A stretch of DNA of 64,000 nt from Thermohalobacter berrensis (GTDB lineage Bacteria > Bacillota > Clostridia > Tissierellales > Thermohalobacteraceae), in assembly GCF_003609645.1 (NCBI RefSeq), contig NZ_MCIB01000005.1:1-64000 (forward strand). Direction: 5' to 3'. The position numbers and the translations under genes were made by a program. Position 1 is the stretch's first letter, and every line of letters starts with the position of its first letter. This document shows, one piece after another, positions 5,866 to 26,100 of the stretch. The notes under the pieces were generated by a model. The model did not search any database, was not told the DNA's origin, and was given only the letters and a program-made list of their open reading frames with translations.

Positions 5866-5947
5866 AATATTAATAATTTTGTTACGAATTTGCAAATAAA
5901 TCTAATTAATGTTAACATAATATTGTACGAAGATTAACATAGTTGAT

Positions 5948-5983
5948 TAAAAGGGAACAGAAATATTTCTGTTCCCTTTTTAT
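5948..5983 (+). terminator. Terminator after the murI operon
   Basis: AAAAGGGAACAG/CTGTTCCCTTTT hairpin followed by TTAT, 80 nt after the ArgS-like stop. Confidence 0.85.
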
Positions 5984-5990
5984 ATAAATT

Positions 5991-6014
5991 GAAACGGGAA
6001 CCGGTTCGTGTTTC
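5991..6014. repeat. GAACCGGTTC-type palindrome
   Basis: Short palindrome GAAACGGGAACC/GGTTCGTGTTTC. Relatives with a GAACCCGGTTCG or similar centre occur at 14158, 43022, 46955 and 60952, all intergenic. Confidence 0.7.
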
Positions 6015-6135
6015 GTATTTGGAAAATTATTACATAACAATATTTACACATTAGGGATTAAATAAATGCATTTTAATGTATAGTTAATAGCTATATGTAA
6101 AAAATAAAAACAAAAAGTTTGGGGAGTGATTTAAC

Positions 6136-7383: not shown

Positions 7384-7403
7384 AAAGCGAGGAAAACTCG
7401 CTT
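7384..7403 (+). terminator. Hairpin after kamA
   Basis: AAAGCGAG/CTCGCTTT stem with a four-base loop directly after the stop; the T run is weak. Confidence 0.55.
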
Positions 7404-7466
7404 TCGCCTTTACTATATATAATAGATTAATACTATAACAAATATACTTTCTTACGCAATAAATAA

Positions 7467-7494
7467 AGGACAAAGGGTAAAAACTTTGTCCTTA
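7467..7494 (-). terminator. Terminator after proA
   Basis: Inverted repeat AAGGACAAAG/CTTTGTCCTT just beyond the proA stop. On the minus strand it is followed by a TTTATTTA stretch. Confidence 0.65.
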
Positions 7495-7497
7495 TAT

Positions 7498-8745
7498 TTA
7501 TTCTCTAATTTGGCCATCACCGTATATTACATATTTAGTTGAAGTTAATTCCTTTAATCCCATAGGTCCCCTTGCATGAAGCTTTTGTGTACTTATACCT
7601 ATTTCAGCACCAAAACCAAACTCAAAACCATCTGTAAATCTTGTTGAAGCATTTACATAAACAGCTGCTGCATCTACTTCATCTAAGAATTTCTGAGCAT
7701 TTGAATAATTCTCAGTTACAATAGCCTCTGAATGCTTAGTACCATATGTGTTTATATGGGAAATGGCTTCATCTACAGAATCTACAACCTTTACAGCTAT
7801 AATATAATCTAGATATTCTGTAGACCAGTCATCATCAGTAGCGTTTATAACTTCAGGGATAATTTCCTTAACCCTTTCATCTCCTCGAACCTCTACATTC
7901 ATTTCTTTGAATTTTTCATACATTTTTGGCAGGAACTTATCTGCTATATCTTTATGAACTAGTAAACTTTCTGCTGCATTACATACACCAGGTCTTGAAG
8001 TTTTAGCATTAAGTGTAATAGCTACAGCCTTATTAATATCTCCACTTTCATCTACATAGATATGGCAATTTCCAACACCAGTCTCTATTACTGGTACAGT
8101 ACTATTTTGAATTACTGCTTGAATTAGTCCTGCACCACCCCTTGGAATAAGGAGATCAAGATATTTGTTTAACTTCATTAATTTTACTGCTGTTTCTCTA
8201 TTAGTATCCTTTATAAGCTGAATAGCTTCCTTTGGAACTTCACACTCTTTTAATACATCTTGAAGAATCTCTACAAGGGCAATATTAGAATTTATGGCTT
8301 CCTTTCCACCCCTTAAAATTGATGCATTTCCTGATTTTAAACATAGACCAAAAACATCAACTGTTACATTAGGTCTTGCTTCATATATAATTCCAATAAC
8401 TCCAATAGGTACTCTCTTTTTACCTATAGTAATTCCATTAGGTCTTTTCCACATAGATATTACTTCTCCAATGGGATCTTCTAATTGAGCAATCTGTTCT
8501 AAGCCTTCAGCTATAGATTTTATTCTTTTTTCGTTAAGGGTTAATCTATCTAAAAGGGCTCCTTTTATCCCATTTTCCTTAGCTTTAGCTAAATCCTCCT
8601 CATTTGCTTTTATTATTTTATCCTTATTTTCTACTAAAGCCTTTGCAGCTTTTTTTAATACTTTATTTTTATCATCAGCAGATAGTTTTGCTAAAGCATA
8701 ACTTGCCTCTTTGGCATTTTGACCTATAATTTCAAGATTATCCAT
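7498..8745 (-). CDS. proA: Gamma-glutamyl phosphate reductase
   Basis: Second step of proline synthesis: NADPH reduction of glutamyl-5-phosphate to the semialdehyde. 415 residues, the usual length, with an aldehyde dehydrogenase-type fold. RPGVCNAAESLLVH carries the catalytic Cys, and VPVIETGVGNCHIYVD and FGFGAEIGISTQKLHARGPMGL are recognisable family blocks. The ribosome site is TGGGGGAG upstream of the ATG. It lies downstream of proB but is separated from it by about 400 nt of palindromes and repeats rather than by the usual tight spacing. Confidence 0.95.
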   Translation of the reverse strand: MDNLEIIGQNAKEASYALAKLSADDKNKVLKKAAKALVENKDKIIKANEEDLAKAKENGIKGALLDRLTLNEKRIKSIAEGLEQIAQLEDPIGEVISMWKRPNGITIGKKRVPIGVIGIIYEARPNVTVDVFGLCLKSGNASILRGGKEAINSNIALVEILQDVLKECEVPKEAIQLIKDTNRETAVKLMKLNKYLDLLIPRGGAGLIQAVIQNSTVPVIETGVGNCHIYVDESGDINKAVAITLNAKTSRPGVCNAAESLLVHKDIADKFLPKMYEKFKEMNVEVRGDERVKEIIPEVINATDDDWSTEYLDYIIAVKVVDSVDEAISHINTYGTKHSEAIVTENYSNAQKFLDEVDAAAVYVNASTRFTDGFEFGFGAEIGISTQKLHARGPMGLKELTSTKYVIYGDGQIRE

Positions 8746-9948: not shown

Positions 9949-10049
9949 AAACCTTCCCTTTCCTTTAAATATTAAAACTACTTAAAAAATATTAAAATTT
10001 ATTAATAATTATAACTGTTTTGTATCTATAATACAAGGAAAAATAAAAA

Positions 10050-10074
10050 GTTGATGGATTACGAATCCATCAAC
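10050..10074. repeat. GTTGATGG palindrome, possible terminator
   Basis: GTTGATGGATT/AATCCATCAAC separated by ACG. Same family as 8879, 43264, 43513, 47004, 49760 and 58586. It lies just downstream of the 10099-10653 minus-strand gene and could terminate it. Confidence 0.65.
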
Positions 10075-10098
10075 AACATTTTCACATTTTCAATTGTT

Positions 10099-10653
10099 TT
10101 AATGTGTCTCTTCCCATTTATCTAATTTTTCCATTACAAGATCATATGTTTTATTACAGACTTCTGGTAGTCCACCTAATATTTTCTTTGCTTCATTAAA
10201 TCCCTTATCAATTGCTGCTTTTAACTCTGGAATCTTATCTTTATTTCCTCCAGATAAGGCCATTGCAAAATCAACAATTCTATCACTTACAGCCTCTGGA
10301 CTTAATGGTCCATCTTTTGATATTAATTTAGCCGCATCTTCCTGAGTATTTTTATTAATTATTACTTCTTTTTCAATATTTATTACGAAGTCTATACTAT
10401 ATCCTTGGCGCACTATTAAATTTTCAACAGCCTTTCTTAATGCTGAATATGCTCTATTACTTTCCTCTTTTAATTTTTTTATTAGCTTTTCATTATAATA
10501 GAATTTTGGATTAGAATATGTTGCTTTTTTAAAATTATCTCCTTTTTCATATCTATCTTTTTTCTCTTTAGGATTATTTTTTGATTTAGGACTTTTCATT
10601 GGTTTTTTTATTCTGCTTATCATTGGGGTATTTTGGTTAGATTGTATTCTCAT
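10099..10653 (-). CDS. Hypothetical protein, DUF5610-like C-terminus
   Basis: 184 residues from the ATG at 10653, which follows ATAGGAGGGG; a longer in-frame start at 10683 has no comparable ribosome site. The N-terminal 55 residues are basic, polar and probably disordered. The C-terminal half (about 105-180) contains PEAVSDRIVDFAMALSGG, LKAAIDKGFNEAKKILGGLP and TYDLVMEKLDKWEE. From memory this resembles DUF5610, a domain without assigned function, but I cannot verify it. There is no signal peptide or membrane segment. Confidence 0.6.
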   Translation of the reverse strand: MRIQSNQNTPMISRIKKPMKSPKSKNNPKEKKDRYEKGDNFKKATYSNPKFYYNEKLIKKLKEESNRAYSALRKAVENLIVRQGYSIDFVINIEKEVIINKNTQEDAAKLISKDGPLSPEAVSDRIVDFAMALSGGNKDKIPELKAAIDKGFNEAKKILGGLPEVCNKTYDLVMEKLDKWEETH

Positions 10654-10754
10654 AAAATCCCCTCCTATAATACATATCGTCACAAAATTCAGAAAACTTG
10701 AATTTGTTGTTTTATATAAAATTTATTATAGGAGAAATTTACATATTCACTAAT

Positions 10755-11267
10755 CTATATAAGCTTATTAACCTCTTCTAATGCTTTATCATAATCAGGA
10801 TGTTTTGTTATTTCATCTACATACTCTACATATCTTACAATATTATTTTCATCTATAACTACAACTCCCCTACTTAACAATCTTAACTCTTCAATTAAAA
10901 ATCCATAGGCTATACCAAAGGATGCTTCTCTATGGTCAGATAAAGTTATAGCATTATCTATTCCCTTTGATGCACAGTATCTATCTAATGCAAAGGGTAA
11001 ATCCATACTTATAGTAATAACTACAGTATCCTTAAGCTTTGAAGCCTCTTCATTAAATCTCATAGTCTGTAAATCACAGACTTTAGTGTCTATAGATGGT
11101 ACAACACTTATAAGTTTTATTTTACCTTCCATATCTCCTAAACCAAAGGGTTTTAGGTCTTTAGTTAAAGCCTTAAAATCAGAGGCTTTATCCCCTACTT
11201 TTATTTCCTTTCCAACTAAGGTTAATGGGTTACCATTCATGGTTATTACACCTTTTCTCTTTTCCAT
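10755..11267 (-). CDS. tpx: Thiol peroxidase (atypical 2-Cys peroxiredoxin)
   Basis: Reduces hydrogen peroxide and organic peroxides at the expense of thioredoxin. 170 residues. The peroxidatic Cys is in PSIDTKVCDLQT and the resolving Cys in DRYCASKGI, the usual Tpx arrangement; the opening NPLTLVG and LSDHREASFGIAYGF segments also fit. The start is supported by GGGAGGAA about 6 nt before the ATG. Divergent from ppdK, with about 190 nt between them for both promoters. Confidence 0.93.
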   Translation of the reverse strand: MEKRKGVITMNGNPLTLVGKEIKVGDKASDFKALTKDLKPFGLGDMEGKIKLISVVPSIDTKVCDLQTMRFNEEASKLKDTVVITISMDLPFALDRYCASKGIDNAITLSDHREASFGIAYGFLIEELRLLSRGVVVIDENNIVRYVEYVDEITKHPDYDKALEEVNKLI

Positions 11268-11455
11268 ATATATTCCTCCCTATTAAATATTTGCCTTTAA
11301 CATGACAAAATTGTATTCATCTGGTTACTTTACAATATACCCCTTTTACAAAAGAGTAAACCAAATATTGGATTTTACTTTAAAAAGCGTAACCTAAACA
11401 ATTTTGGGTAAATTTATTTATATATAATATCTACAAAGGCTAAGGGGGAGTTTGT

Positions 11456-14092
11456 ATGGGAAAATACGTATATCAATTTGAAGAAGGAAAAAAGGAGATG
11501 AAGAACCTTTTAGGTGGTAAGGGGGCAAATCTTGCTGAGATGACAAATATAGGACTACCAGTACCTCCTGGGTTTACTATCACTACTGAAGCCTGCAAAT
11601 ACTTTTTTGAAAATAATGAACAAATAACTGATGAATTAGAAAAGGAGATACTTAAAAATATTGCTAAAATTGAAAAGAAGACAGGAAAGAAATTTGGAAA
11701 TAGCAAAAACCCACTATTAGTTTCTGTAAGGTCTGGAGCACCTGTATCTATGCCTGGAATGATGGATACAATACTTAACCTAGGACTTAATGATGATTCT
11801 ATTAAAGGTATGGCAAAACTAACAAACAATCCTAGATTGGTTTATGATAGCTATAGAAGGCTTATACAAATGTTTGGAGATGTAGTAATGAAAGTACCTA
11901 AAGAAGAGTTTGATAATATCTTAGAAAGTATAAAGAAAAGGGAAGGCTTTAAAAGCGATATTGAGTTAAATGTAGACCATCTTAAGGAGATAATTTCAGA
12001 ATATAAGAGGATTTTTAAGAAATTTTCAGGTATTGATTTTCCACAGGAGCCTAAAGTTCAACTTCTTATGGCAGTTAATGCAGTATTTAAGTCATGGCAA
12101 AACCCAAGAGCAATATCCTATAGAAACATTAGTAAAATTCCACATGATTTAGGTACTGCAGTAAATATTCAGACAATGGTATTTGGCAATATGGGGGATA
12201 ACTCTGCAACAGGTGTTATGTTTACTAGAAACCCTTCTACTGGTGAGAAAAAATTATATGGGGAATTTTTAATAAATGCCCAAGGGGAAGATGTAGTTGC
12301 TGGAATAAGAACACCTCAGCATATAGATGAAATGAAGAATGTCCTACCAGAAAATTATAATGACCTTAAAAAGATATCGAATACTTTAGAAAGTCATTAT
12401 AAGGATATGCAGGATATAGAGTTTACTATAGAAAATGGGAAGACCTTTATACTTCAGACAAGAACAGGTAAAAGGACAGCAGAGGCAGCAGTAAATATTG
12501 CTGTAGATATGGTTAATGAAGGGCTAATTGATAAAAAAACAGCTATAATGCGAATAGACCCAAAGGCTATAGAACAGCTTTTACATCCAATATTTGATAG
12601 TAAAGAACTAGAAAAGTCTAAGGTGATTGCTAAAGGATTAGCAGCATCACCAGGGGCAGCTACAGGAAGGGTATATTTTACCTCAGTTGATGCAGTTGGA
12701 GCTGCTAAAAAAGGAGAAAGGGTAATATTAGTTAGAAAGGAAACATCCCCTGAAGATATTGATGGTATGGCAAAGGCAGAAGGATTTTTAACATCTAGAG
12801 GAGGAATGACTTCCCATGCTGCAGTTGTTGCAAGACAGATGGGAAAATGCTGTATTGCAGGCTGTGGTGATATAGAGGTTGAAGAGCATAATAATAGATT
12901 TATTGCAGGAGAAGAAATAATTAAAGAAGGGGATTATATTTCTCTAGATGGAAATACAGGAAAAGTGTATAAGGGAAAAATAAAGACTACAATACCTGGC
13001 CTTAGTGGTAACTTTAATACACTTTTAGAATGGACAGATAACTTTAGAAGGTTAGGTGTTTGGGCTAATGCAGATAAGGCAGCAGATGCTAAAAAGGCCT
13101 TAGACTTTGGGGCTGAAGGAATTGGTCTTTGTAGAACTGAGCATATGTTTTTTGATGATGAAAGGATAAACTATGTAAGAAGAATGATAATAGCTAAGGA
13201 TACAAACGAAAGAATTAAAGCCCTAGACAAACTATTTACATTCCAAAAAGATGATTTTAAAAGCTTATTTGAAACTATGAAGGACAAGCCTGTTATCATA
13301 AGATTATTAGATCCACCTTTACACGAGTTTTTACCACAGGATGAAAAGGGAATAAAAGAGCTTTCTAAAGAGCTTAATGTGGATTTTAGTAAATTAAAGT
13401 ATACAGTTGAAAAACTAAAAGAGTTTAATCCTATGTTAGGCCATAGGGGTTGTAGGCTAGGAATAACCTATCCTGAAATATATGAAATGCAGACTAAGGC
13501 AATTATAGCTGCAGCAGTTGAAGTTAAAAGGGGAAAAGATGTAGATGTAAAACCGGAGATAATGATACCGCTAGTTGGGATAGATAAAGAGATTAAAGAA
13601 ATTAGAGATAGGGTAACAGAGATAGCAGATACTATCATATCAGAATCAGGTATTAGATTAAAATATAAAGTAGGTACTATGATAGAGGTACCTAGAGCTA
13701 GCCTAGTAGCTGATAAAATAGCAGAATATGCTGACTTTTTCTCCTTTGGAACTAATGATTTAACTCAGATGACCTTTGGCTTCTCTAGGGATGATGCAGG
13801 AAAATTCCTTACTATATATAGAGAAAATGGAATATTAGAAGAAGATCCATTTACAACTATAGATGAAAATGGTGTAGGGAAACTTGTAAAAATGGGAGTA
13901 GAACTTGGTAGAAGTGTAAAACCTGATATAGTAGTTGGAATATGTGGAGAACACGGTGGAGACCCTAAGTCTATAGAATTGTGTAATAGAATAGGATTAA
14001 ATTATGTATCCTGCTCACCATATAGAGTTCCTGTAGCAAGATTAGCTGCAGCACAAGCTGCTATAATGGAAGATATTGAAATTGAAAATTAA
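11456..14092 (+). CDS. ppdK: Pyruvate, phosphate dikinase
   Basis: Interconverts pyruvate, ATP and Pi with PEP, AMP and PPi; anaerobes use it for glycolytic PEP/pyruvate flux or for gluconeogenesis from amino acids. 878 residues, full length. Domains in order: ATP-grasp nucleotide-binding (residues 1-340, LGGKGANLAEM and VSVRSGAPVSMPGMMDT), the phosphohistidine swivelling domain (GGMTSHAAVVAR, His454) and the PEP/pyruvate TIM barrel with IRLLDPPLHEFLP and the catalytic Cys830 in GICGEHGGDP. Start ATG behind AAGGGGGAG. Monocistronic and convergent with an SLH gene. Confidence 0.97.
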   Translation: MGKYVYQFEEGKKEMKNLLGGKGANLAEMTNIGLPVPPGFTITTEACKYFFENNEQITDELEKEILKNIAKIEKKTGKKFGNSKNPLLVSVRSGAPVSMPGMMDTILNLGLNDDSIKGMAKLTNNPRLVYDSYRRLIQMFGDVVMKVPKEEFDNILESIKKREGFKSDIELNVDHLKEIISEYKRIFKKFSGIDFPQEPKVQLLMAVNAVFKSWQNPRAISYRNISKIPHDLGTAVNIQTMVFGNMGDNSATGVMFTRNPSTGEKKLYGEFLINAQGEDVVAGIRTPQHIDEMKNVLPENYNDLKKISNTLESHYKDMQDIEFTIENGKTFILQTRTGKRTAEAAVNIAVDMVNEGLIDKKTAIMRIDPKAIEQLLHPIFDSKELEKSKVIAKGLAASPGAATGRVYFTSVDAVGAAKKGERVILVRKETSPEDIDGMAKAEGFLTSRGGMTSHAAVVARQMGKCCIAGCGDIEVEEHNNRFIAGEEIIKEGDYISLDGNTGKVYKGKIKTTIPGLSGNFNTLLEWTDNFRRLGVWANADKAADAKKALDFGAEGIGLCRTEHMFFDDERINYVRRMIIAKDTNERIKALDKLFTFQKDDFKSLFETMKDKPVIIRLLDPPLHEFLPQDEKGIKELSKELNVDFSKLKYTVEKLKEFNPMLGHRGCRLGITYPEIYEMQTKAIIAAAVEVKRGKDVDVKPEIMIPLVGIDKEIKEIRDRVTEIADTIISESGIRLKYKVGTMIEVPRASLVADKIAEYADFFSFGTNDLTQMTFGFSRDDAGKFLTIYRENGILEEDPFTTIDENGVGKLVKMGVELGRSVKPDIVVGICGEHGGDPKSIELCNRIGLNYVSCSPYRVPVARLAAAQAAIMEDIEIEN

Positions 14093-14114
14093 AAATAAAA
14101 AATGGAAAAAACTG

Positions 14115-14186
14115 GTGAAAAACGGGGACGGTTCTGTTTTTCACAAATGTAAAAAAATTGAAACGCGAACCCGGTTCGCGTTTCAA
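14115..14186. repeat. REP-like half element plus GAACCCGGTTCG palindrome between convergent genes
   Basis: 14120-14145 carries the GGGACGGTTCT...TTTTTCA motif shared with the RAYT-flanking elements. 14158-14186 is a near-perfect TTGAAACGCGAAC/GTTCGCGTTTCAA palindrome that could serve as a bidirectional terminator for ppdK and the opposing SLH gene. Confidence 0.65.
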
Positions 14187-14759
14187 TTAATATTTTTTAT
14201 TTAATTTAATTAGTAAGCTATTATCCACTAATACAAAGACATCTCCTCTTGGGATTTTGGCTTCAGCTGGGATAACCATATTATCTACAATCCCCAATTC
14301 TGTAGCTTTATCTATATAGTTTAAAGGCCATTCTTTATCTTTATCCAGTGATTTATCATATCCTAATATTCTAACTAATACTGCTAATACTTCATCATAA
14401 GAAATTTTTCTGTCAGGTTTGAAGGTTCCATCTCCATACCCGTTTAACAATCCTTCTTCTACAGCAATATTTATATATTTTGAAGCCCAATGCTCTTTAG
14501 TTACATCACTAAATATTGTATCTTTTTCATAGCTTTCTATATCATACTGTTTAGGTAAAAGTCTAACTATTAATGCTGTAAACTCAGCCCTTGTTATTAA
14601 ATTTTCAAGTTTTAATGAACCATCTTCATAGCCTGTAACTATTCCTAATGCTAATAGTTTTTCAGCAGATTCCAGTTGTTGAGCATTTTCTACAGCCAAA
14701 ACTGTACTAGTAAAAATAAGTAGCAAAATCAGTAGAACACTAAAAAGCTTTTTATGCAA
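14187..14759 (-). CDS. Small SLH-domain surface protein
   Basis: About 190 residues made almost entirely of three S-layer-homology segments (about 25-75, 85-135 and 140-185), behind a signal peptide (HKKLFSVLLILLLIFTSTVLA). SLH triplets bind pyruvylated secondary cell-wall polymers. I chose the TTG at 14759 as start because it follows GGAGGTGG by 5 nt and begins a typical signal peptide. The ATG at 14777 lies upstream of that ribosome site and inside a hairpin. Last gene of the minus-strand surface cluster. With no other domain, it may be an accessory cell-wall binder. Confidence 0.75.
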   Translation of the reverse strand: MHKKLFSVLLILLLIFTSTVLAVENAQQLESAEKLLALGIVTGYEDGSLKLENLITRAEFTALIVRLLPKQYDIESYEKDTIFSDVTKEHWASKYINIAVEEGLLNGYGDGTFKPDRKISYDEVLAVLVRILGYDKSLDKDKEWPLNYIDKATELGIVDNMVIPAEAKIPRGDVFVLVDNSLLIKLNKKY

Positions 14760-14761
14760 AA

Positions 14762-14801
14762 TTTCCACCTCCGACATTTTTAATTATATCAGAGGTGGAA
14801 A
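14762..14801 (-). promoter_or_regulatory. Hairpin that would pair with the ribosome binding site of the small SLH gene
   Basis: A perfect 10-bp inverted repeat (14762-14771 against 14792-14801, 20-nt loop). On the minus-strand transcript the 3' arm GAGGTGGAAA contains most of the Shine-Dalgarno for the TTG start at 14759. It lies right after the stop of the upstream cohesin-SLH gene, so it could attenuate read-through or limit translation. Confidence 0.6.
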
Positions 14802-14828
14802 AACAATAATATTTCAATTTAATTACAA

Positions 14829-16196
14829 TTAGATTACTTCCATAATCTTCAACATATCAATAATAATTTTACACATTTCAGCCCTTGTTACATAGTTATT
14901 AGGTCTAAAGGTATTATCTTTATAACCTTTTATTAAACCTAGGGAAGAAAGCTTGTCTACACTTTCTCTACCCCATTTAGGTATATTTTCGTAATCTGAG
15001 AAAACTTTACTGTTTTTATTTGAATCATAGTCTTTAAGTATTTTATTTAGCATGGAAGCCAATTCTAATCTTGTAATATATCTATTTGGCTTAAATGTAT
15101 TGTCACTATATCCTTTTATAATCCCTTCAGCTACCAACTTATTTATATGACTCTTACACCAATGGGGAATGGAAGTTTTATCTTTAAAAGACTTAAGGTT
15201 ATCTTCTTTATCTAAACTAAGGGCTAGAGAAAACACCTTAGCCACTTCACCTCTAGTTATAGGTCTATTGGGTTCAAAGTTAGTCTTATTTACACCATTT
15301 ACATAACCTAAAGAAGTTATATATTGGATATAATCCTTTGCCCAGTTATCTTTAATATCTGTGTAATCTTTATAGTTTTTATTTTCCAGAATTGCAAACA
15401 TATCATAGGGTTTTACCGAGCCTGTAATAAGTTCACCTTCAATTTTCCCTCCAAGGTAAATCCATTCTTCTCTATCATCATTATAGTAATAGATACCTAA
15501 GGGCTTACTTTTCATATTTTCTTTAATTTTAAATGAAAGCTTTAATTTTTCATTAATCTTATTATTGTATTCTATTTTGTATATGTTGTATGGTGTGTCT
15601 TTAGTTTCAGTAATCATACTAACTGTTAAATCTGACCTGTTCATGTCTTTAGGTAATTGTAATGTCATGTCTTTTACTTTTATAACATCATTTTTTCTCT
15701 TTGAAGAGGTGGAAAAATCTCTAATTTTAATAGAGGTATCTTTTATATTATGTTTTAGCTTTGCACCATCCCTTTTAAGTAGAAGGCTTTTTTCTATTGT
15801 TATATTCGTAAGGCCCTTTTTTATAGACTTAAAATTTACTGTGCCAATTATTGTGTCTTTATTTAAGGTATTCTCATCACCTACAAGGGTATATAGAATT
15901 TCTATTATCCCATTATCGTTATCTATAGTATTCCTTGCCTGAAAGTGTTCTTTATTAAGGAGTTGTTCTCCAATTTTAACCTCTTTGGTATTAGCATTAA
16001 TATATTTAGGGTCAAACCTTAACTTAATGTGGATACCATATATATTAGATATATTTTCTGTTTCTATTTGTAGGTTAAAATTATGATTAATTTTTAAGGT
16101 AGAATTCTGTACATTAAGTTTTAATATTCCTGTATCAGAAGCATAGGCAATATTACATGTAAGTACTAATATTAATATAATCAGAATCTTTTTCAT
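14829..16196 (-). CDS. Cohesin-SLH surface anchor protein
   Basis: 455 residues: signal peptide (1-19); a cohesin-type beta domain (about 20-150, with NISNIYGIHIKLRFDPKYI and GTVNFKSIKKGLTNI patterns); a beta linker (about 165-275); then three SLH segments (about 280-450: DIKDNWAKDYIQYITSLG, IPHWCKSHINKLVAEG, IPKWGRESVDKLSSLG). This is the architecture of a cell-wall-anchored cohesin receptor, which in cellulosome biology binds dockerin proteins. The two genes transcribed just before it both encode dockerins. Start ATG behind AGGGGA. Cohesin assignment is by pattern, not by search. Confidence 0.8.
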   Translation of the reverse strand: MKKILIILILVLTCNIAYASDTGILKLNVQNSTLKINHNFNLQIETENISNIYGIHIKLRFDPKYINANTKEVKIGEQLLNKEHFQARNTIDNDNGIIEILYTLVGDENTLNKDTIIGTVNFKSIKKGLTNITIEKSLLLKRDGAKLKHNIKDTSIKIRDFSTSSKRKNDVIKVKDMTLQLPKDMNRSDLTVSMITETKDTPYNIYKIEYNNKINEKLKLSFKIKENMKSKPLGIYYYNDDREEWIYLGGKIEGELITGSVKPYDMFAILENKNYKDYTDIKDNWAKDYIQYITSLGYVNGVNKTNFEPNRPITRGEVAKVFSLALSLDKEDNLKSFKDKTSIPHWCKSHINKLVAEGIIKGYSDNTFKPNRYITRLELASMLNKILKDYDSNKNSKVFSDYENIPKWGRESVDKLSSLGLIKGYKDNTFRPNNYVTRAEMCKIIIDMLKIMEVI

Positions 16197-16211
16197 TTTT
16201 AAATCCCCTAG

Positions 16212-17129
16212 CTATTCAGTTAATCTTCTGTTAATAAATATTAGATCAAGTATATCTATTATACCGTCTTTATTTACGTCAAAACTATTGTTTCCAGTAT
16301 TTCCATATTCATTTGCAGTAAGGACTAAGTCTTCGAGGCTTACAATACAATCATTATTAACATCACCTTCAACTGTAAGCTCTGATATTACATTTTCAGT
16401 CTGTCCATCTATAATAGTAATATCTTGACTATACTCATAGTATCCATCACATTTAATATTTAAAGTATAATTTCCTTCTACCAAGTTGTTTATATTAAAG
16501 ACTCCATTAGAGTCAGCTGTGGTAGTAACAATACTCTCTCCTTTAACTACCTCTACTGTTGCATTACTAATAGGGCTATTATTACTATCGGTTATTGTTC
16601 CAGATACACCACCAGTTCCGAGAACTGTATAATTAATACTATTTGAAGTAAATGTAACTTCATTAAGGGTCATATTTAAATCTTCAGTGACTAATATACT
16701 TTCACTTCCTATTGATATAGTGCTACTTCCCTTTTTAAGGGCTTTAAAAGTTATAGTTCCAATAGTTTGACTACCAGATAAGGGGGCTATGTTTTTATCT
16801 AAACCAAAAACTAATAAAACACTGCCTTCACTATCTTTTAGACTAGTGTTAGTTATACCTTCTAAACTAGTAAAATCGGTTGTATCCTGAAGGTTTAATG
16901 TCTTCCCTTCTACCTGTAACAAAGTACTATCATAATTTATTACTATATAACCACCAACAAGGTTATCTATATTATCAACAGTAATATCAACTGTAAAAGT
17001 TTCCTGAGGCTTTAAAGATGATAGGTCACCTGATGATAATTGGACAGAAGCTTCTTGTGCATAAGTTAAAGCAGGAAAACAAAATGTTAGTGAAATTAGA
17101 ATAAAAAAGTAAATAAATTTTTTAGCCAT
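16212..17129 (-). CDS. Cohesin-dockerin adaptor protein
   Basis: 305 residues: signal peptide (1-24); a cohesin-like domain (about 26-155, NIDNLVGGYIVINYDSTLL and GTITFKALKKGSSTI); a carboxypeptidase-regulatory-like beta-sandwich (about 160-245, SGTITDSNNSPISNATVEV); and a C-terminal dockerin with two F-hand calcium loops (DVNNDCIVSLEDL and DVNKDGIIDILDL). Having both a cohesin and a dockerin lets it link a dockerin enzyme to a cohesin anchor. Its ATG follows the upstream stop with no gap, behind GGAGG, so it is translationally coupled to the beta-helix gene. Confidence 0.85.
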   Translation of the reverse strand: MAKKFIYFFILISLTFCFPALTYAQEASVQLSSGDLSSLKPQETFTVDITVDNIDNLVGGYIVINYDSTLLQVEGKTLNLQDTTDFTSLEGITNTSLKDSEGSVLLVFGLDKNIAPLSGSQTIGTITFKALKKGSSTISIGSESILVTEDLNMTLNEVTFTSNSINYTVLGTGGVSGTITDSNNSPISNATVEVVKGESIVTTTADSNGVFNINNLVEGNYTLNIKCDGYYEYSQDITIIDGQTENVISELTVEGDVNNDCIVSLEDLVLTANEYGNTGNNSFDVNKDGIIDILDLIFINRRLTE

Positions 17130-18482
17130 CTATTCATCCTCCCTAAATCTTAAAATAATAAGAATATCCAATAAATCAATTTTGCCATTTCTATTAAAGT
17201 CATATTTATCTCTCCAGTTAACATCTGTACTATCTAACCCAAATGCATTAGATACCTCTGATATATCTAAATTATCTACATTAGCATCATTATTAACATC
17301 AAGCAAATTAGAGTTGTATTTAAGCTCAGTATTAATGTTAATATCTTCATTATGTATATATACTTCCTTTGCTACAGTATTGTAGCCATTGTTTTGAAAG
17401 GTTAAAGTATAGTTGTTAGGGCCTAAATTATTAAAGGAGAAAAGCCCATCCCTGTCAGTATATGTACTGTCAATCCTACTCCCATCCAAAAAAAGATTTA
17501 CATCAATTCCTCCATGGTTAAAGGAATTCTTTAAAGATACTTGCCCTTCTATAATGTTTCCACCAGAAAAATGGATAAAGTTTTCATCTAAAGCCCATTT
17601 ATCATAGATAATGTTACCATTAAAGACTGAGCTACCATCTATAGAAGGACCATCCTCACTATTCCACCAATTATAGTTAAGGTTAAGGGTATTTTGTGTA
17701 TCTCTATTGTAGATATAATAAGTTGGTGCAAGGAATTTATTGTGTGAAATGTTGAGATTTGATGTAGAAAAGTCATTAAAATCAAAAATAACCTTGTTTC
17801 CATCAAAGATGTTATCCTTTACTTCTATTTGGCTATCTGAAGCCCCTTGAATCTCTATACCACTATCATTAAAAACATTGCCATTGATATATAAATTGCT
17901 TCCATTAGAATTTCTTACTTCTATACCTTCAACGGAAAATGAAGAATTAACAAAGGATATAGAGCCATTAGCATTATATGAAAAATCTATAACAGGTCCT
18001 TTAGGATTAAAGGAACAATTAGTAACTGTTATATCTACATCTTCATTAGCTTGTGAGTTTTTTATAACAAGGGGGTCAGAGTAAGAAAAGGATACATCTT
18101 TTAGATTAAGATATGGTGAATAGCTTTCTATAATCCTTTTATCAATACTAGATTTAAAGTGGATATTTTCTATGGTAAGGGATGAATTGGACAGTACTTC
18201 TATTAAAAGGTAGGTATCATTTTTGCATCCAATAACAGGAGTTCCATCTATTCCAATAATACTTACAGATTTATCTATTTGAGCTTTTTCAAAAGCGTAA
18301 AATCCACCACTATCTCTAATATAGATAGTTCCTCCATCTGCTACAGCATTTAAGGCATCATTTAATGTTTGATAATCATCGGGTATAGTTACGTAGTTAT
18401 TGGCAGAATAGCCTATGTTAAAGGTGATAACTATTAGTAAAATTGATATAAAAATAAGTAATATCCTTTTTGAACCTATCAA
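17130..18482 (-). CDS. Parallel beta-helix protein with C-terminal dockerin
   Basis: About 450 residues: signal peptide; a right-handed beta-helix with repeated N-rich rungs (about 30-300; NSSLTIENIHF, NGSISFVNSSF, NGSNLYINGNVF, DSQIEVKDNIF); a carboxypeptidase-regulatory-like module (about 310-390); and a dockerin (DVNNDANVDNLDI and DFNRNGKIDLLDI). Such helices are common in polysaccharide lyases and adhesins, but I see no catalytic signature, so the activity is unknown. GTG at 18488 touches the ribosome site AGGAGG; TTG at 18482 (5 nt spacing) is the better start. First gene of the cohesin/dockerin operon. Confidence 0.8.
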   Translation of the reverse strand: MIGSKRILLIFISILLIVITFNIGYSANNYVTIPDDYQTLNDALNAVADGGTIYIRDSGGFYAFEKAQIDKSVSIIGIDGTPVIGCKNDTYLLIEVLSNSSLTIENIHFKSSIDKRIIESYSPYLNLKDVSFSYSDPLVIKNSQANEDVDITVTNCSFNPKGPVIDFSYNANGSISFVNSSFSVEGIEVRNSNGSNLYINGNVFNDSGIEIQGASDSQIEVKDNIFDGNKVIFDFNDFSTSNLNISHNKFLAPTYYIYNRDTQNTLNLNYNWWNSEDGPSIDGSSVFNGNIIYDKWALDENFIHFSGGNIIEGQVSLKNSFNHGGIDVNLFLDGSRIDSTYTDRDGLFSFNNLGPNNYTLTFQNNGYNTVAKEVYIHNEDININTELKYNSNLLDVNNDANVDNLDISEVSNAFGLDSTDVNWRDKYDFNRNGKIDLLDILIILRFREDE

Positions 18483-18546
18483 CTTCACCTCCTTTTAACA
18501 AATATAGAAATATTATACTAAATATTGCCAATATTTTGAATACTTT

Positions 18547-18652
18547 CGACAAACTTTTTAACTTATGCAAACCGGGACGGTTCTCTTTTTCACCAATTAT
18601 TCCCAAAACTGAAAAAGAGAACCGTCCCCGTTTTTCAGAAATGTAAAAATTA
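18547..18652. repeat. REP-like palindromic element, copy 1
   Basis: GGGACGGTTCTCTTTTTCA and its complement GAAAAAGAGAACCGTCCC surround a short loop, with fixed outer sequences (TCGACAAACTTTTTAACTT left, TTTTTCAGAAATGTAAAAA right). An almost identical 100-nt copy lies at 22038-22146 beside the RAYT gene. It fills most of the gap between the surface operon and the adaptor gene; nothing else is evident in 18489-18799. Confidence 0.85.
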
Positions 18653-18799
18653 GGAATCAAACATTTCATTTTGTGAACTATATCACTAATTTTAAAACCA
18701 TATAAAGGGTTTATATACAATTTTTATTTCATTTTGTTTTATTTTCCTATTTACAGGGTATCAATACTAAACAATATATTACTCTGAAAGGAGATTACT

Positions 18800-20008
18800 A
18801 TGAAATTAAATACTAAAGTGTTAATTATAACTATAGTACTTGGCATAACAATATTTTTATCATTCCTATTTATAAATGGTTTTGCTTTTACTAAATCTGT
18901 AGAAGCATATGAAGTTACTAAAAAGGATGTTTTAAATACTATAATTACAAATGGCAAGATTGTACCAAAGAAAACTATAGACATTAAATCACCTATATCA
19001 GGACATATAAAAAATGTATTTGTCAAAGAGGGAGATTTAGTTACTAAAGAAGATACTATTATTACCTTTGATAAGAGAGAAATAACAAGGAAAGTAGAAG
19101 AAGCCAGAGTATCTAAGGAATTATTTGAAATCTCATTAGAGAAGTTGCTTGAATATAGCTATAAATCTGCATTAGAGGAGTTAAAGATAGTAGAATTAAA
19201 TAAAAAAGAACAGGAAAATGAAATAGAAAGATTATCAGTACTTTTTGAAAATGGTGCTATTTCATCTAAGGAATACGAAAAATTTCTAAACCAGTATGAG
19301 CAAATTAAGGCAAAATATAACTTAGCAAAAATGAAGGTTGAAAATTTGCAAAGTAATGGAATACAAGCTAAGGAGCTTAGGGCAAAAATAAAACAGGCAA
19401 ATACTATCTTAGAAAGTACTAAATTATTAAAGGCTAAATATGACATCAAAGTTCCATTTAAAGGAAATATATCTAAACTTTATTCTAAAGAAGGCCTATT
19501 TGTAACTGTTGGAGAAAGTCTCGTGACATTAGAAGATTTAAGGGAATTATATGTAGATATTCAATTGGATGAAAGGGAAATTTCATCTCTAAAAATAGGG
19601 CAAAAAGCCTTAATTTCAAGCCAAGCTTATCCTCAACAGAAAATTAATGGTGTTGTAGATTATATCTCCCCTTCAGTAGATGAAAATAGGGGAACTGTGG
19701 ATGTAAAAATAAAGCTAGAAAACCCACCAAATAACTTGAAAACAGGCCTTACAGTTTCAGCAGAAATAATAACTGATAGCATAAAATCTGCTCTAGTAAT
19801 CCCTAAGGACTTTATAGAAAGAGAAGATAATAGTCTCTATGTTTGGACCGTTGATAATATGGATTATGCCATTAAGAAAAAAATTAATGCTAAATTTGAA
19901 ACTATTGATGCTGTAATAGTAGATAAAGGTGTTACAGAAGGTGATATTGTATTAAGACCAAATAATCTTGAAGAAGGACAAAAAGTTAAGGCATTAATAA
20001 AGGAGTGA
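18800..20008 (+). CDS. Membrane-fusion/adaptor protein of a MacAB-like ABC transporter (HlyD family)
   Basis: 402 residues: one N-terminal membrane helix (about 7-28); a split biotinyl-lipoyl-like domain (SPISGHIKNVFVKEGDLVTKED near residues 60-81, completed by DIKVPFKGNISKLYSKEGLFVTVGE); a long coiled-coil hairpin between them (about 90-205); then beta-barrel and membrane-proximal domains (VDIQLDEREI, KTGLTVSAEI). This is the MacA/YknX type, an extracytoplasmic adaptor in monoderms. AAAGGAG precedes the ATG. It begins a three-gene operon with the permease 6 nt downstream and the ATPase overlapping that. Confidence 0.9.
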   Translation: MKLNTKVLIITIVLGITIFLSFLFINGFAFTKSVEAYEVTKKDVLNTIITNGKIVPKKTIDIKSPISGHIKNVFVKEGDLVTKEDTIITFDKREITRKVEEARVSKELFEISLEKLLEYSYKSALEELKIVELNKKEQENEIERLSVLFENGAISSKEYEKFLNQYEQIKAKYNLAKMKVENLQSNGIQAKELRAKIKQANTILESTKLLKAKYDIKVPFKGNISKLYSKEGLFVTVGESLVTLEDLRELYVDIQLDEREISSLKIGQKALISSQAYPQQKINGVVDYISPSVDENRGTVDVKIKLENPPNNLKTGLTVSAEIITDSIKSALVIPKDFIEREDNSLYVWTVDNMDYAIKKKINAKFETIDAVIVDKGVTEGDIVLRPNNLEEGQKVKALIKE

Positions 20009-20013
20009 TATAG

Positions 20014-21237
20014 ATGCCTATTGAGTTTATGCTTTCTTGGAAATTCCTTAAGTCTGGGAAGTTTCAAACAATATTAATACTGTTAGGTATAACTGTAGGT
20101 GTTTCAATATTGGTTTTTATAGGCTCTTTAATTGATGGGTTGCAAAAGGATCTAATTAATAGAACTATAGGAAACTCTCCACATATTGTAATAACATCTA
20201 AGACAGACATTCCTAGGGCACAAATTGAAGGTAATAACATATATAAAAATGTAAAATTATTAAAAGCAAATAATCAAGATAATAATATATCTTCATTTCA
20301 GGACTATAACCAATTAATTATTAAAAATCAAAATGTTAATGTTATTTCTCCTACAGTAACAGCCTCTGGATTCATTAACAAATCAAAAAGTAATAGCCCA
20401 ATTACAATTAAGGGGATCAATTTAGATAAGGCAGATAAAATATACAATGTAAAGGATAGAATTATATCGGGATTACCAATTATATCAGGGAATAATATTT
20501 TAATTGGGAAATCAATAGCAAATGACTTAGAAATTAAAGTTAATGATATAGTAACTGTAACAACCCCAAATGGAAATAGAGATTTATTTACTGTTAGTGG
20601 TATTTTTGACTTAGAAAACGAATCAATAAATAAAACCTGGGCATTAATCGAAATCAATAGAGCTCAGAAGCTATTAAGATTAGATGGTGACATATCATCC
20701 ATTGAAATTCAAGTAAATGAAGTCTTTTCTGCAGAAGATACCTCAAAAAGTCTTGAAAGAGTTTTAAATGAGGATTTCAATGTTGAAAGTTGGCAAGAAA
20801 CTAATGCTCAAATTTTGACAGCTTTAAATAGTCAATCAAGTTCAACCTTATTAATTCAAGTTTTTGTTGTTATAGCTGTAACTTTAGGTATAGCAAGTGT
20901 TTTAGCTATTTCAGTTATACAAAAATCTAGACAAATAGGTATATTAAAGGCAATGGGGATAAAGACAAAAAGTGCCAGTTTTATATTCTTGATTCAAGGT
21001 TTTTTGTTAGGGTTTGTTGGCTCAATTATAGGAAGTGGATTTGGAATGTTATTATCAAAGCTATTTGTAACCTTTGTCAGACAAGATAACGGTGAACCAC
21101 TATTCCCTATAGATATAGACTTAAAACAAATTTTAGTTGTAATATTAATATCTACATTAGCCTCAACCTTTGCAGCAATTGTACCAGCAAGGCGTTCAGC
21201 TAGGCTTAACCCCATTGAGGTGATAAGAAATGGATAA
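20014..21237 (+). CDS. FtsX/MacB-type ABC transporter permease
   Basis: 407 residues with one N-terminal membrane helix (about 19-40), a large extracytoplasmic MacB periplasmic-core-like domain (about 45-270), and three C-terminal helices (about 280-300, 325-350 and 365-390) followed by ARRSARLNPIEVIRNG, the typical FtsX-superfamily tail. MacB-like permeases act as mechanotransmission modules for export rather than as simple channels. The gene ends 8 nt inside the ATPase gene, indicating translational coupling. Substrate (antimicrobial peptide, lipid or other) cannot be told from sequence. Confidence 0.9.
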   Translation: MPIEFMLSWKFLKSGKFQTILILLGITVGVSILVFIGSLIDGLQKDLINRTIGNSPHIVITSKTDIPRAQIEGNNIYKNVKLLKANNQDNNISSFQDYNQLIIKNQNVNVISPTVTASGFINKSKSNSPITIKGINLDKADKIYNVKDRIISGLPIISGNNILIGKSIANDLEIKVNDIVTVTTPNGNRDLFTVSGIFDLENESINKTWALIEINRAQKLLRLDGDISSIEIQVNEVFSAEDTSKSLERVLNEDFNVESWQETNAQILTALNSQSSSTLLIQVFVVIAVTLGIASVLAISVIQKSRQIGILKAMGIKTKSASFIFLIQGFLLGFVGSIIGSGFGMLLSKLFVTFVRQDNGEPLFPIDIDLKQILVVILISTLASTFAAIVPARRSARLNPIEVIRNG

Positions 21238-21985
21238 TTTACTCCAATTAAAAAATATTAAAAAGGTATATGGAACTAAAATAAAAACAGAAGTACTGCA
21301 TGGTTTAAATATATCATTCAAAAAAGGTGAGTTTGTATCTATAATAGGTCAGTCAGGGTCAGGTAAAAGTACACTTTTAAACATAATAGGCACATTAGAT
21401 AAGCCTACAGAAGGAGAAATATTATTTAAGGAAAAAAGATTAAACCACATGAATGGAAAGGAGCTATCAACATTTAGAAATGATAATGTAGGTTTTATTT
21501 TTCAATTTCATTATTTATTACCAGAAGTAAATGTATTAGAGAATGTGTTAATGCCTGCCTGGATTTCTAAAGGTAGAACTCCATCTAAAGATGTTATAAA
21601 AAGGGCTAAAAGACTTATAGAAATTGTAGGTGTAAAGGATAGAATGTACAATAAACCAAATGAACTTTCTGGGGGACAAAGACAAAGAATTGCAATTGCA
21701 AGGGCTCTAATAAATAATCCAGCATTAGTCTTGGCAGATGAACCTACTGGAAATTTAGATAGTGATTCTACCGATAAAGTATATGAACTTTTAAGGGATA
21801 TAAATAAGGAATTTAAATCAACATTTATTATAGTAACCCATGATATGCATATAGCTGCAAAAGCAGATAGGGTTATTGAAATTAAAGATGGTAATGTAAT
21901 TAGAGATGTAAATAACATAGGAAAGAATGAAATTGAATCATTTAAGGATTTTACACCAACCTCATGCTTCTTATGTGAAAAATAG
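21230..21985 (+). CDS. ABC transporter ATP-binding protein, MacB/LolD type
   Basis: 251 residues with Walker A GQSGSGKST, Q-loop FIFQFHYLLPEVNVLENV, signature LSGGQRQR and Walker B LVLADEPTGNLDS, all in order. It powers the permease encoded just upstream. An unusual C-terminal tail after the usual domain end reads FKDFTPTSCFLCEK, placing two cysteines in a CFLC motif that could bind metal or form a disulfide. The ATG overlaps the permease stop region, with GAGGTGATAAG as ribosome site. A strong terminator follows. Confidence 0.93.
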   Translation: MDNLLQLKNIKKVYGTKIKTEVLHGLNISFKKGEFVSIIGQSGSGKSTLLNIIGTLDKPTEGEILFKEKRLNHMNGKELSTFRNDNVGFIFQFHYLLPEVNVLENVLMPAWISKGRTPSKDVIKRAKRLIEIVGVKDRMYNKPNELSGGQRQRIAIARALINNPALVLADEPTGNLDSDSTDKVYELLRDINKEFKSTFIIVTHDMHIAAKADRVIEIKDGNVIRDVNNIGKNEIESFKDFTPTSCFLCEK

Positions 21986-21999
21986 TATATCAATTAGGT

Positions 22000-22036
22000 A
22001 AAAAACCTCTAACTTTATTTGTTAGAGGTTTTTTTA
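22000..22036 (+). terminator. Terminator after the ABC export operon
   Basis: AAAAACCTCTAAC/GTTAGAGGTTTTT hairpin with a T-rich tail. Confidence 0.9.
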
Positions 22037-22037
22037 T

Positions 22038-22146
22038 TCGACAAACTTTTTAACTTATGCAAACAGGGACGGTTCTCTTTTTCACCAATTATTCCCAAAA
22101 CTGAAAAAGAGAACCGTCCTCGTTTTTCACAAATGTAAAAAATAGG
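22038..22146. repeat. REP-like palindromic element, copy 2 (left flank of RAYT)
   Basis: Same element as 18547-18652 with only a few differences. It lies about 95 nt upstream of the RAYT start. The GGGACGGTTCTC arm and its complement form a strong stem. Confidence 0.85.
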
Positions 22147-22239
22147 AATTCTTATGTTTTGTTTAGAAGAAGTAAAGGGTATAAAATAAAGGAAATTGTC
22201 TTTTGTTGTTGAATTATAAAAAGAATAGGAAGTGATTTT

Positions 22240-23040
22240 ATGCCTAGAAGGCCTAGAAAAAGAAGCTCTACAGGTATATACCATGTAATGGAGAGGGGTA
22301 ATCAAAAAAAGAATATTTTTCATGACTATGAAGATAGGCAAATGTTTATTGACATATTAAAGATAAAAAAGATAAAACTTAAATTTACCCTTTATGCCTA
22401 TTGTCTAATGAATAATCACATACATTTACTTATAAACGAAAATTCTGAGGATATATCATATATAATGAAATCTATTAATGTCAGCTATGTTAAATACTAC
22501 AATAAAAAATACAAAAGATGTGGACATCTTTTTCAAGGTAGATTTAAAAGTGAATGTGTGGATAATGAAAGTTATCTTTTATCTGTTTTAAGATATATTC
22601 ACCAAAATCCTGTAGATGCTAGAATAGCTTTAAAGTGTATTGATTATGATTGGAGTAGTTATAAAGAATATATCTATCCTAATAAAAAATCTTATAGTCT
22701 AATAGACAGAAATTTTATATTAAAGCAGTTTTCCACAGATCCATATAAGGCTGTGGATTATTTTAGAGATTTTCACGATCAATCTTCAAATAATCCACAT
22801 CTAGATATTACAGAAAATAAAAATTTATTTATACAAAGCTTAAAAGATGCAGAAGAGTTTCTAGAGAATTATTGTAATGAAAATAATGTAACCCTTAAAT
22901 GGCTAAAAGAACAAGGGAAAAGGGGTAATAGACTTTTATATAATGCTATTTTATTTTTAAAAAACAATTCTTGTCTTACATATGAAGAAATATCAAAAAT
23001 TGTAGGTGTAAGTATATCAACCGTTAGTAGGGTTAAGTAG
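22240..23040 (+). CDS. REP-associated tyrosine transposase (Y1_Tnp, RAYT)
   Basis: A single-strand-DNA nuclease of the HUH/Y1 superfamily. RAYTs cut and join REP-type hairpins. The 266-residue product has the N-terminal RRPRKRSSTGIYHVMERGNQ block, the HUH motif NHIHLLI (about residues 64-70) and the region YIHQNPVDARI that follows the catalytic Tyr helix. It also has an extra C-terminal helix-turn-helix-like tail (LTYEEISKIVGVSISTVSRVK). It sits between a complete REP-like palindrome (22038) and a half copy (23050), a typical RAYT setting. The frame is intact, so it may be active. Confidence 0.9.
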   Translation: MPRRPRKRSSTGIYHVMERGNQKKNIFHDYEDRQMFIDILKIKKIKLKFTLYAYCLMNNHIHLLINENSEDISYIMKSINVSYVKYYNKKYKRCGHLFQGRFKSECVDNESYLLSVLRYIHQNPVDARIALKCIDYDWSSYKEYIYPNKKSYSLIDRNFILKQFSTDPYKAVDYFRDFHDQSSNNPHLDITENKNLFIQSLKDAEEFLENYCNENNVTLKWLKEQGKRGNRLLYNAILFLKNNSCLTYEEISKIVGVSISTVSRVK

Positions 23041-23049
23041 AAAATGGAA

Positions 23050-23130
23050 AATAATGGTGAAAAAGAGAACCGTCCCGGTTTTTCAGAAATGTAATATATT
23101 GGAATTTAAGTTTTTATAGTTTTTTGTCGA
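23050..23130. repeat. REP-like half element, right flank of RAYT
   Basis: GTGAAAAAGAGAACCGTCCC and TTTTTCAGAAATGTAA match the right half of the full elements. The end (TTTTTTGTCGA) is complementary to the left end (TCGACAAA) of copy 2, so the RAYT region has inverted ends. Confidence 0.75.
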
Positions 23131-23181
23131 TTTATATTAATGGAAAAGGAATATAATTACCTCAGGTGGTGATTTACAGTT

Positions 23182-26100
23182 ATGAAATTCTCAATAAAGA
23201 AAATAGTAAGTTATATTATAGTGTTTATGATGATATTTAATCTTTTTCCATGGCAGAATATAGACATATCACTTGCATTAGATGTTGGTGATGCTGAACT
23301 AGGGAAAATTGTTGTTGGTAGAACCTATGATGAAGAATTAAACTTTGACACAATGTATGTAGAATTACATAGGGATGATACTGATACAGGTGATATTTCG
23401 GATGTAAGTGTTTTATATAAAACTGGTGAAGGGGATTTTGAAGAGCTTTCCAACAAAGTTATAGCTATGGAATACTACGTTAAATATGAGCTAACACAAG
23501 AAGAGTTGGCAAACTATGGTGGCTCATTAATGATTAATGGTAAAGAAATTACTGCTAACTTCAGTGGTGTACCAACTGTAAACCAACTTAAAAGGACAAT
23601 TAATGAAGATATAGATGAGGATGAAACTACTCTAAATACTACTGAGTACTATTTTGAAATAACAGATGGAAATAATTTATCTAATCTCTTCCAAGACGAT
23701 GGTGAAGGATTTCACTATACTGTACTATTTGAAAAGTATGGTGCAGGTGTAGATATTGAAGGAGAGGACCCAAGCATAATAGTTGAACATACAAATAACA
23801 CTTTTAAACTAGAAAATCCTCCAAGACCAGGAGATTATGGTTCATATAATCTAGTATTTCAGAAAACAAATGAATCAAGTGGTCAAGACCCAATAGTTGA
23901 AGTAAGACATACATATGTTAAAGCTTTTAGTTTTGTTAAAAATCTAGATATTACTAATCTAAAGATGTATCCTAATATTGGAACTAGAGGAGATACAGTA
24001 AGCTTTACAGGTAATGGTCTTCAATCAGATTATGAGGTATATTTCTTAAAGGAACTGGATGGTACAGATACATATAATGAGAACAATAAAGCACAGTTTG
24101 TAAATTTTGTTAATAATGATGATGGAACATCTACATTAATAGTAGAAGTTCCTCAAAGCCTAGAACTAACTGAGTATTTTGTAATTATAACAGATACTCA
24201 AAATGGTGAGATAATCGGTGAATACACTGTAGAAGATAAATACATTGTAATAGATAGTCAAAAGAAGGCAAGTATCCTTTCTGTAACCCCTATAAGTGGT
24301 CCAGATACTGGGCAATCTGTTGTAATAGAGGGTAAGAATATTAGTACTTTAAACTTTTATGATTTACAATTGGCAGATGGTTATAGTGACTACAGTTATA
24401 CTATTGACCGTTCAGATCCAAATTACTTGGTCATAAAGTATCACGCTCCTGGGGATGAAAATAATACAGAAATATGGGAATACAAAGGTGAAAACTACTC
24501 TATTGAAAAAAGAATATGGGTTAATATAGGACAGCTTCAAGACTTTGAAGATGATCCAGAGTTTTCGGATAACCTAGATAGGCTATTTGTTAATGTTAAG
24601 CTAGATGAAGTAATTACTGAAGAAACTTTAAAGGATGTAATCGTAGGAACAGAAACTAAGTTTATCAATTCAAGTGGTGAAGATGATTATTCATTCTTTG
24701 AAGATGCAAAGCCAGTAGACGGGCAAAAATATACATTTGAACCTAGTAAGAAACAGCCTACAATAACAGAGATAGTTCCTGACAAAGTGCAAGTTGAAAA
24801 TGGACAGATTAAACAGGATACCCTTTTTGCTATATATGGTGAAGATTTTACTATCTATAGAAATACTGATGAGTCAGGTAACGTGGTTATATCATATCCT
24901 ATTGTAAAAATATATGATGATGCCAGCTTAGAATTGGAGATAAATCCTAATGAAGGTACGGTAAGGGATAAAAACGGTAATATTGTACTTGACAGTGATG
25001 GAGCTCCAGTACAACCAGAGATGATTATACTAGAAGGAGATAACATCTTAGATGGTTCATATGGAAATCAGATAGGGTCAAAAATTATTGTTACCATTCC
25101 ACAAGGTGTTATAGTATCGGGACCTGGACCAAAGGATGTTGAGGTTATAAACCCTATAAAAAATAGTACTTCACCAGGTCTTTCATCTAGAGAAGATGAT
25201 ATTATTCAGTTTACTGAACCTTTAGAGAGTCCTGTTATCTCAAGTGTTGAACCAAGTGTAATTACAGTGGATGGCGGAGAAGAAATAGAAATAATAGGTA
25301 GTAACTTCCAAGAGGGTGTAAAGGTATATATAGATGGCAATGAGATACCAAATATTGAACGTCAAGGTGATGGTAAGTCTATTACATTTACAGCACCACC
25401 AAACAGGGAAGCTATTACTCAACTGCAAGTTATCAACCCCGATGGAGGTATGGCTGTACATGAATTTATATATGTAAAGACTTATACTGACCCACAAATT
25501 ACTAGCATTTCCCCAGATGAAGGTATGCTAGAGACATTAGTAATGGCTAAGGGTAATAACTTCTTAAAACCAGACCCTACAGCAACCCATACCACAGAAC
25601 TTGGAATGTATAGGTTAATAGGAAGTAGGATTTTAGTTGATGGTAAAGAGGTAAATGAGTATAACAAAGAAAATGGGAAAATAAAACTGCAATATTATAA
25701 ACCTGAAACTGGAAATGAAATTCTAAAAATTAATAGTAATGAAACATTACAAGTAGCCGATTACTACTATAGTGTTCTTCTTCAAGAATATGATAGCATT
25801 AATGACGAATTAATAGATAATTTTTATACATTAGATATTAGGCCAAATGGAACTATCATATTATCAGATGGAGTTGATGATGAATATACCTTAATTGCAA
25901 CATCAAGCGAAATTAAAGCTGTAAAAAATGGTGGAACTGAAACCTATACTTTAATAGTAGATGAAAGTAATCAGGATTATTCAGAAATTCAATTTAAGGA
26001 TAGTTCAGATACTATTGTTAAGAGGTTAAGACTAAGAACTCCATATAAAATAGAAACTGATGAAAATGGAAACAGTAGAATTACAGGTAATAGAGTAAGG

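Follow-up and report, generated by a model that had tools for sequence, protein, structure and literature searches.

What would cohesins and dockerins assemble in a genome that offers them a single protein to display and no dockerin-bearing enzyme? Cohesins and dockerins outside cellulosomes have been described from both bacteria and archaea, with roles that are mostly open (PMC9012536). The question is raised by four genes, here P1 to P4, in a 64,000-nucleotide stretch of Thermohalobacter berrensis DNA (the window). A first-pass annotation had read them as consecutive minus-strand genes for beta-helix–dockerin, cohesin–dockerin, cohesin–SLH and SLH proteins, in which a beta-helix protein, an adaptor and a wall anchor could form a chain. 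The four open reading frames were recovered and their domains were supported, and we give a probability of roughly 0.65 to the reading that P1, P2 and P3 form a closed, two-step, one-cargo surface tether running P1→P2→P3→wall.

A compact locus among surface-protein genes

All four genes were on the minus strand and spanned 14187–18488 in the window's open reading frame list. P1 (17130..18482), the proposed cargo, encodes a signal peptide, a putative right-handed beta-helix, an X-like (CarboxypepD_reg) module and a dockerin, while P2 (16212..17129), the proposed monovalent adaptor, encodes a signal peptide, a cohesin, an X-like module and a dockerin. P3 (14829..16196), the proposed wall anchor, comprises a signal peptide, a cohesin, a pre-SLH region and three SLH domains, and P4 (14187..14759) comprises a signal peptide and two SLH domains. 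The signal-peptide-like N-termini of all four proteins were judged by eye. For P1, the TTG at 18482, located after AAAGGAGG, was preferable as a start to the GTG at 18488 of the mechanical list, and P4 probably starts at TTG 14759; an RBS-like stretch was present just before both TTG codons. No bases separated P1 from P2, 15 separated P2 from P3, and about 70 separated P3 from P4.

The P1–P2–P3 order was kept in four genera from three families, specifically in the window genome, in G002 from the same family, and in G013 and G014 from two other families of the order. Because the genome's only two dockerins lie in adjacent genes, and because the arrangement recurs in three other genera, it exceeds what chance would produce.

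Between P4 and a convergent gene we identified a strong hairpin of 15 pairs with T runs on both strands (14156..14188), likely a terminator common to the two genes. Upstream of P1, the minus strand carried a promoter-like TTCAAA-17-TATAAT (18512..18540), which is a consensus match only, and promoter-like sites in the region showed no enrichment over shuffled sequence. An Rfam scan of 10000–24000 returned no match. Additionally, palindromic REP-like repeats of GGGACGGTTCTC were located at 14125-14136, 18574-18628, 22066-22120 and 23065-23076 (seven matches at up to two mismatches, versus 0.72 expected), flanking both the operon and an IS200-like Y1 transposase gene (22240-23040).

Nearby, a giant gene (23182–29379) encodes a 2065-residue protein with seven TIG stretches, and its proximity to the operon marks the window as a surface-protein region. 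This protein was 50% identical to its counterpart in G013, where the TIG gene is directly divergent from the operon, and a TIG gene was also found near the operon in G002 and beside the beta-helix gene of a further genome, G011. A partial open reading frame at the edge of the stretch fetched from G014 appeared TIG-like by eye, but was without a Pfam match.

Two X-dockerins, two cohesins and a proposed wall anchor

PF00404 matched the dockerins of P1 (17154..17300, minus strand) and P2 (16221..16367, minus strand), both above the cut-off in the genome search (34.5 and 29.2 bits) and both again by hmmscan (31.1 and 24.8 bits). Each was directly preceded by a CarboxypepD_reg-like X module: that of P1 (17301..17552; PF13620/PF13715) matched the X module of type II X-dockerins, and that of P2 (16377..16607; PF13620) was identified by Pfam and profile matches. 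The P1 profile matched the solved type II X-dockerin 2b59_B (E 4.2e-12) and the P2 profile matched 4u3s_B (E 7.5e-13), with X module and dockerin covered in both cases; such X-dockerins terminate several scaffoldins in Acetivibrio cellulolyticus (PMC3413522). The P1 dockerin has two complete F-hand calcium loops and, as read from alignments, both loops keep their ligand residues in P1, in P2, and in the orthologues of each. In the P2 dockerin of the window, the linker that joins the calcium loops lacked some seven to eight residues relative to the three orthologues.

The P2 cohesin (16632..17042, minus strand) scored 41.5 bits against PF00963 in the genome search and 41.7 bits as a segment alone. 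Searches of whole proteins with hmmscan missed the cohesins, evidently due to speed filters, since the isolated P2 segment reaches that score. The cohesin of P3 (15714..16124, minus strand) is divergent, with a type II-like fold, and its segment from the window remained below the PF00963 cut-off. Hence, of the modules for which the first-pass annotation had proposed confirmation with PF00963 and PF00404, both dockerins and the P2 cohesin were recovered by Pfam, but the P3 cohesin of the window was not. Orthologous P3 segments, however, exceeded the 24.1-bit cut-off (31.7 bits in G002 and 28.3 bits in G013), and the P3-cohesin profile aligned to that of the P2 cohesin with an hhalign probability of 98.3. 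Moreover, when an AlphaFold2 model of the P3 segment (pLDDT 73) was compared with the PDB, cohesins made up 50 of the 50 matches listed, at a TM of about 0.8 and with type II on top. From the orthologues that pass Pfam, the alignment to the P2 profile and the match of the modelled fold, the N-terminal module of P3 is judged to be a genuine cohesin. That the modules might belong to other beta-sandwich families, named beforehand as a finding that would count against the system, does not apply, as P3 matches cohesins by both profile and fold. For both the P2 and P3 cohesin profiles the best matches were type II cohesins, weakly.

SLH domains were certain by hmmscan in P3 (three domains by Pfam; 14871..15371, minus strand) and in P4 (two domains). 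P3 therefore joins a cohesin to SLH domains in one exported protein, the composition of an anchoring scaffoldin, and P2 joins one cohesin to one dockerin, the composition of a monovalent adaptor scaffoldin. Anchoring to the wall by SLH domains is plausible in this organism, given the 31 SLH matches in its genome and the presence of a PS_pyruv_trans (CsaB-type) polysaccharide pyruvyl transferase.

The proposed cargo

Residues 104-252 of P1, within the beta-helix region (17565..18386, minus strand), contained seven LxIxNxxF rung motifs at spacings of 23, 26, 24, 22, 22 and 24 residues; shuffled sequences had a mean of 0.42 motifs and reached seven in 0 of 5000 trials. P1 also has an N-terminal DGGTIYI motif and an NWW...GP end, and together with the rung motifs these features are typical of a right-handed parallel beta-helix. 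A Pfam search of the P1 beta-helix matched no family, and the single-sequence AlphaFold2 model of P1 was poor (pLDDT 49). With that model, Foldseek returned no significant PDB match and nothing useful from a viral structure library; many of the matches listed were beta-helices, to which no weight is given.

The first-pass annotation had suggested that a lyase may be displayed. This was abandoned: the beta-helix matched no Pfam lyase family, and residues invariant in the orthologue alignment (N, F, G and W) look structural and include no conserved Asp/Arg/Lys cluster of the type considered for a polysaccharide lyase. We infer that the beta-helix serves as a rod, for binding or structure, rather than as an enzyme.

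A closed set in a genome without dockerin enzymes

The genome (2.76 Mb, completeness 100) contained two Dockerin_1 matches, those of P1 and P2, so the search for further dockerins that had been proposed at the outset ended within the operon. One Cohesin match was above the cut-off, that of P2, and the searches of this genome found no cohesin outside the operon, no multi-cohesin scaffoldin, and no dockerin-bearing glycoside hydrolase. In G002, G013 and G014, the dockerins and cohesins found were also inside the operon. The P1–P3 system is self-contained. In line with the first-pass annotation, it is not a cellulosome, because no further dockerin or cohesin was found in the genome and each cohesin protein has a single cohesin. 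The related suggestion of a likely non-cellulolytic organism held as far as the lack of a dockerin-bearing enzyme goes; a GH48 search had no match in this genome but equally none in control genomes, and so does not establish that GH48 is absent.

Conservation, separate module lineages and loss

Orthologues were 34–44% (P1), 33–46% (P2), 32–46% (P3) and 47–58% (P4) identical to the proteins of the window, and P4 came next after P1–P2–P3 in G013 and G014. A full-length P1 or a strong P3 cohesin was present in only 4 of the 249 genomes of the order examined. In samples of the class (391 genomes) and of the phylum (398 genomes), both of which include some members of the order, the only full P1 found was the window's own; portions of X-dockerins and a few incomplete beta-helix N-termini were also seen. 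A back-translated pattern search gave one dockerin-only match in genome contigs, none in viral contigs, and none in plasmids.

Other arrangements were seen at separate loci. Four loci (L064, L065, L072 and L075, from G472, G537, G251 and G267) encode proteins of about 555 residues that end in an X-like module and dockerin and appear cohesin-like by eye at their start; the next gene in each encodes a cohesin-like secreted protein of about 180 residues. These genes are possibly another small non-cellulosomal pair. Additionally, L042:6120-7289 and L043:5521-7371 combine cohesin and dockerin in single proteins behind a different N-terminal part, with the dockerin and the RCC1-like repeats of L043:5521-7371 recognised by eye only.

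In phylogenetic reconstructions, cohesins were split by gene position into P2 and P3 groups with support of 100/100, and X-dockerins were split likewise into P1 and P2 groups, also at 100/100, in trees whose long branches, chiefly that of G014, make the finer branching unreliable. The splits imply that the ancestor shared by the operons already had two different cohesins and two different dockerins, which have been kept apart since. In each of the four genomes, the P2 and P3 cohesin lineages shared only 17-28% identity, and the recognition helices differed between the dockerin lineages (e.g., LIIxLRY in P1 and LIFINRR in P2). Two distinct cohesin–dockerin pairs thus appear, at the level of sequence, to have been maintained through divergence; a set of four genomes is too small to test for co-evolution. 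These differences also bear on a second way in which the proteins could assemble, namely that P2 self-polymerises, its own dockerin binding the cohesin of the next copy, to form a fibre that starts from P3 and is capped by P1. P2 does have both modules in one chain, and the four modules share a type II-like character, but the differing helices and the low identity between the cohesins better fit two separate pairs, and the repeats inside each dockerin are asymmetrical. We consider such a fibre unlikely.

A comparison within one genus exposed a natural deletion. G001 and G002 were 92–96% identical on both flanks, and G001 is without one 3.5-kb stretch, corresponding to approximately bases 5031–8540 of locus L036 in G002. 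The missing stretch covers P2 entirely, P3 almost entirely and the greater part of P1, of which a 104-residue open reading frame with the start remains. The P1–P2–P3 unit is therefore dispensable and was lost in one piece; the distribution of the operon is patchy. In G011, a homologue of the P1 beta-helix (36% identity) had a divergent TIG gene on one side and a homologue of P4 (47% identity) on the other. There, a Pro/Glu-rich tail replaces the X-dockerin, and P2 and P3 are absent, which suggests that the cohesin–dockerin part is an exchangeable attachment device for the beta-helix.

Against this background, the locus could be viewed as the vestige of a cellulosome, or as an incomplete cellulosome with enzymes elsewhere, considering that type II cohesins, X-dockerins and SLH anchors are cellulosomal in the solved examples 2b59 and 4u3s. 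This is highly improbable, in that the genome has no other dockerin, cohesin-bearing proteins have one cohesin each, and the system is conserved in three families (32-46% identity) with calcium loops intact, decay being seen only in G001. It is also quite improbable that free cohesins or dockerins serve in contacts between cells or in capturing dockerin proteins of foreign origin, as an adhesion or scavenging device. P2 and P3 each present a cohesin, scavenging of foreign dockerins has been proposed for Paenibacillus guangzhouensis (PMC11557425), and interactions with bacteria have been proposed for the dockerin/cohesin systems of ANME archaea (PMC9012536). Yet the two dockerins equal the two cohesins in number within one operon, and the modules are kept together across genomes and were lost together in G001.

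A proposed two-step tether

Returning to the tether, gene order and the two separate module lineages suggest that the P1 dockerin pairs with the P2 cohesin and the P2 dockerin with the P3 cohesin. P3 would be held at the cell wall through its SLH domains and present one cohesin. P2 would dock on P3 by its own dockerin and present a different cohesin, on which P1 would dock in turn, carrying the beta-helix rod outward. The resulting chain would be calcium-dependent and of 1:1:1 stoichiometry, and would stand next to the S-layer and TIG proteins encoded nearby. P4, a small SLH protein whose gene accompanies that of P1, may have a role in ordering or capping the wall layer. The chain from beta-helix to adaptor to wall anchor, as first proposed, has gained from the conservation of the genes, from the distinct module pairs that were kept, and from the lack of other dockerins in the genome.

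Relation to known systems and meaning

Noncellulosomal cohesin and dockerin proteins were reportedly treated by Peer et al. in 2009. Among the closest known systems is type II cellulosome anchoring in Clostridium thermocellum CipA/SdbA (2b59) and Acetivibrio cellulolyticus ScaA/ScaB (4u3s), with which the operon shares an X module followed by a dockerin of two calcium loops, a type II-like cohesin fold, and a cohesin–SLH wall anchor. Unlike those systems, it is without a multi-cohesin scaffoldin and a dockerin-bearing enzyme, has a single non-enzymatic cargo, and has X-dockerins for both of its dockerins. Paenibacillus guangzhouensis likewise has adaptors of one cohesin and one dockerin that are able to dock onto cohesin–SLH anchors, but its set comprises five SLH anchors and 28 monovalent adaptors, many of which are glycoside hydrolase fusions (PMC11557425), in contrast to the one adaptor, one anchor and one cargo here. 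As in the noncellulosomal proteins of bacteria and of archaea such as ANME, some of which are S-layer-linked, cohesins and dockerins lie outside cellulose degradation; the text consulted on those proteins mentions no single operon with a conserved cargo–adaptor–anchor chain (PMC9012536). A census of 305,693 genomes demanded a dockerin–glycoside hydrolase gene alongside one with multiple cohesins (PMC11557425), and would therefore pass over this operon. The component types, namely cohesin–SLH anchors, monovalent adaptors and type II X-dockerins, were known before; what is new is that they form a complete and conserved set for one cargo in genomes that have no dockerin enzymes.

The set, with a single cargo, a single wall anchor and two each of dockerins and cohesins, is small enough for every pairing to be tested, and the deletion in G001 relative to G002 and the G011 beta-helix with another C-terminus provide natural material. 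For surface display, such a 1:1:1 chain could also add two further type II-like pairs to the building blocks on offer. Finally, non-cellulosomal cohesins and dockerins have been known for years, mostly as scattered modules whose partners and roles are not clear, while this operon holds a complete set. We lean slightly towards the view that its two orthogonal pairs, conserved beside the S-layer/TIG locus, would display a single beta-helix protein on the wall of cellulosome-free bacteria, as a modular ornamentation of the S-layer rather than an enzyme scaffold.
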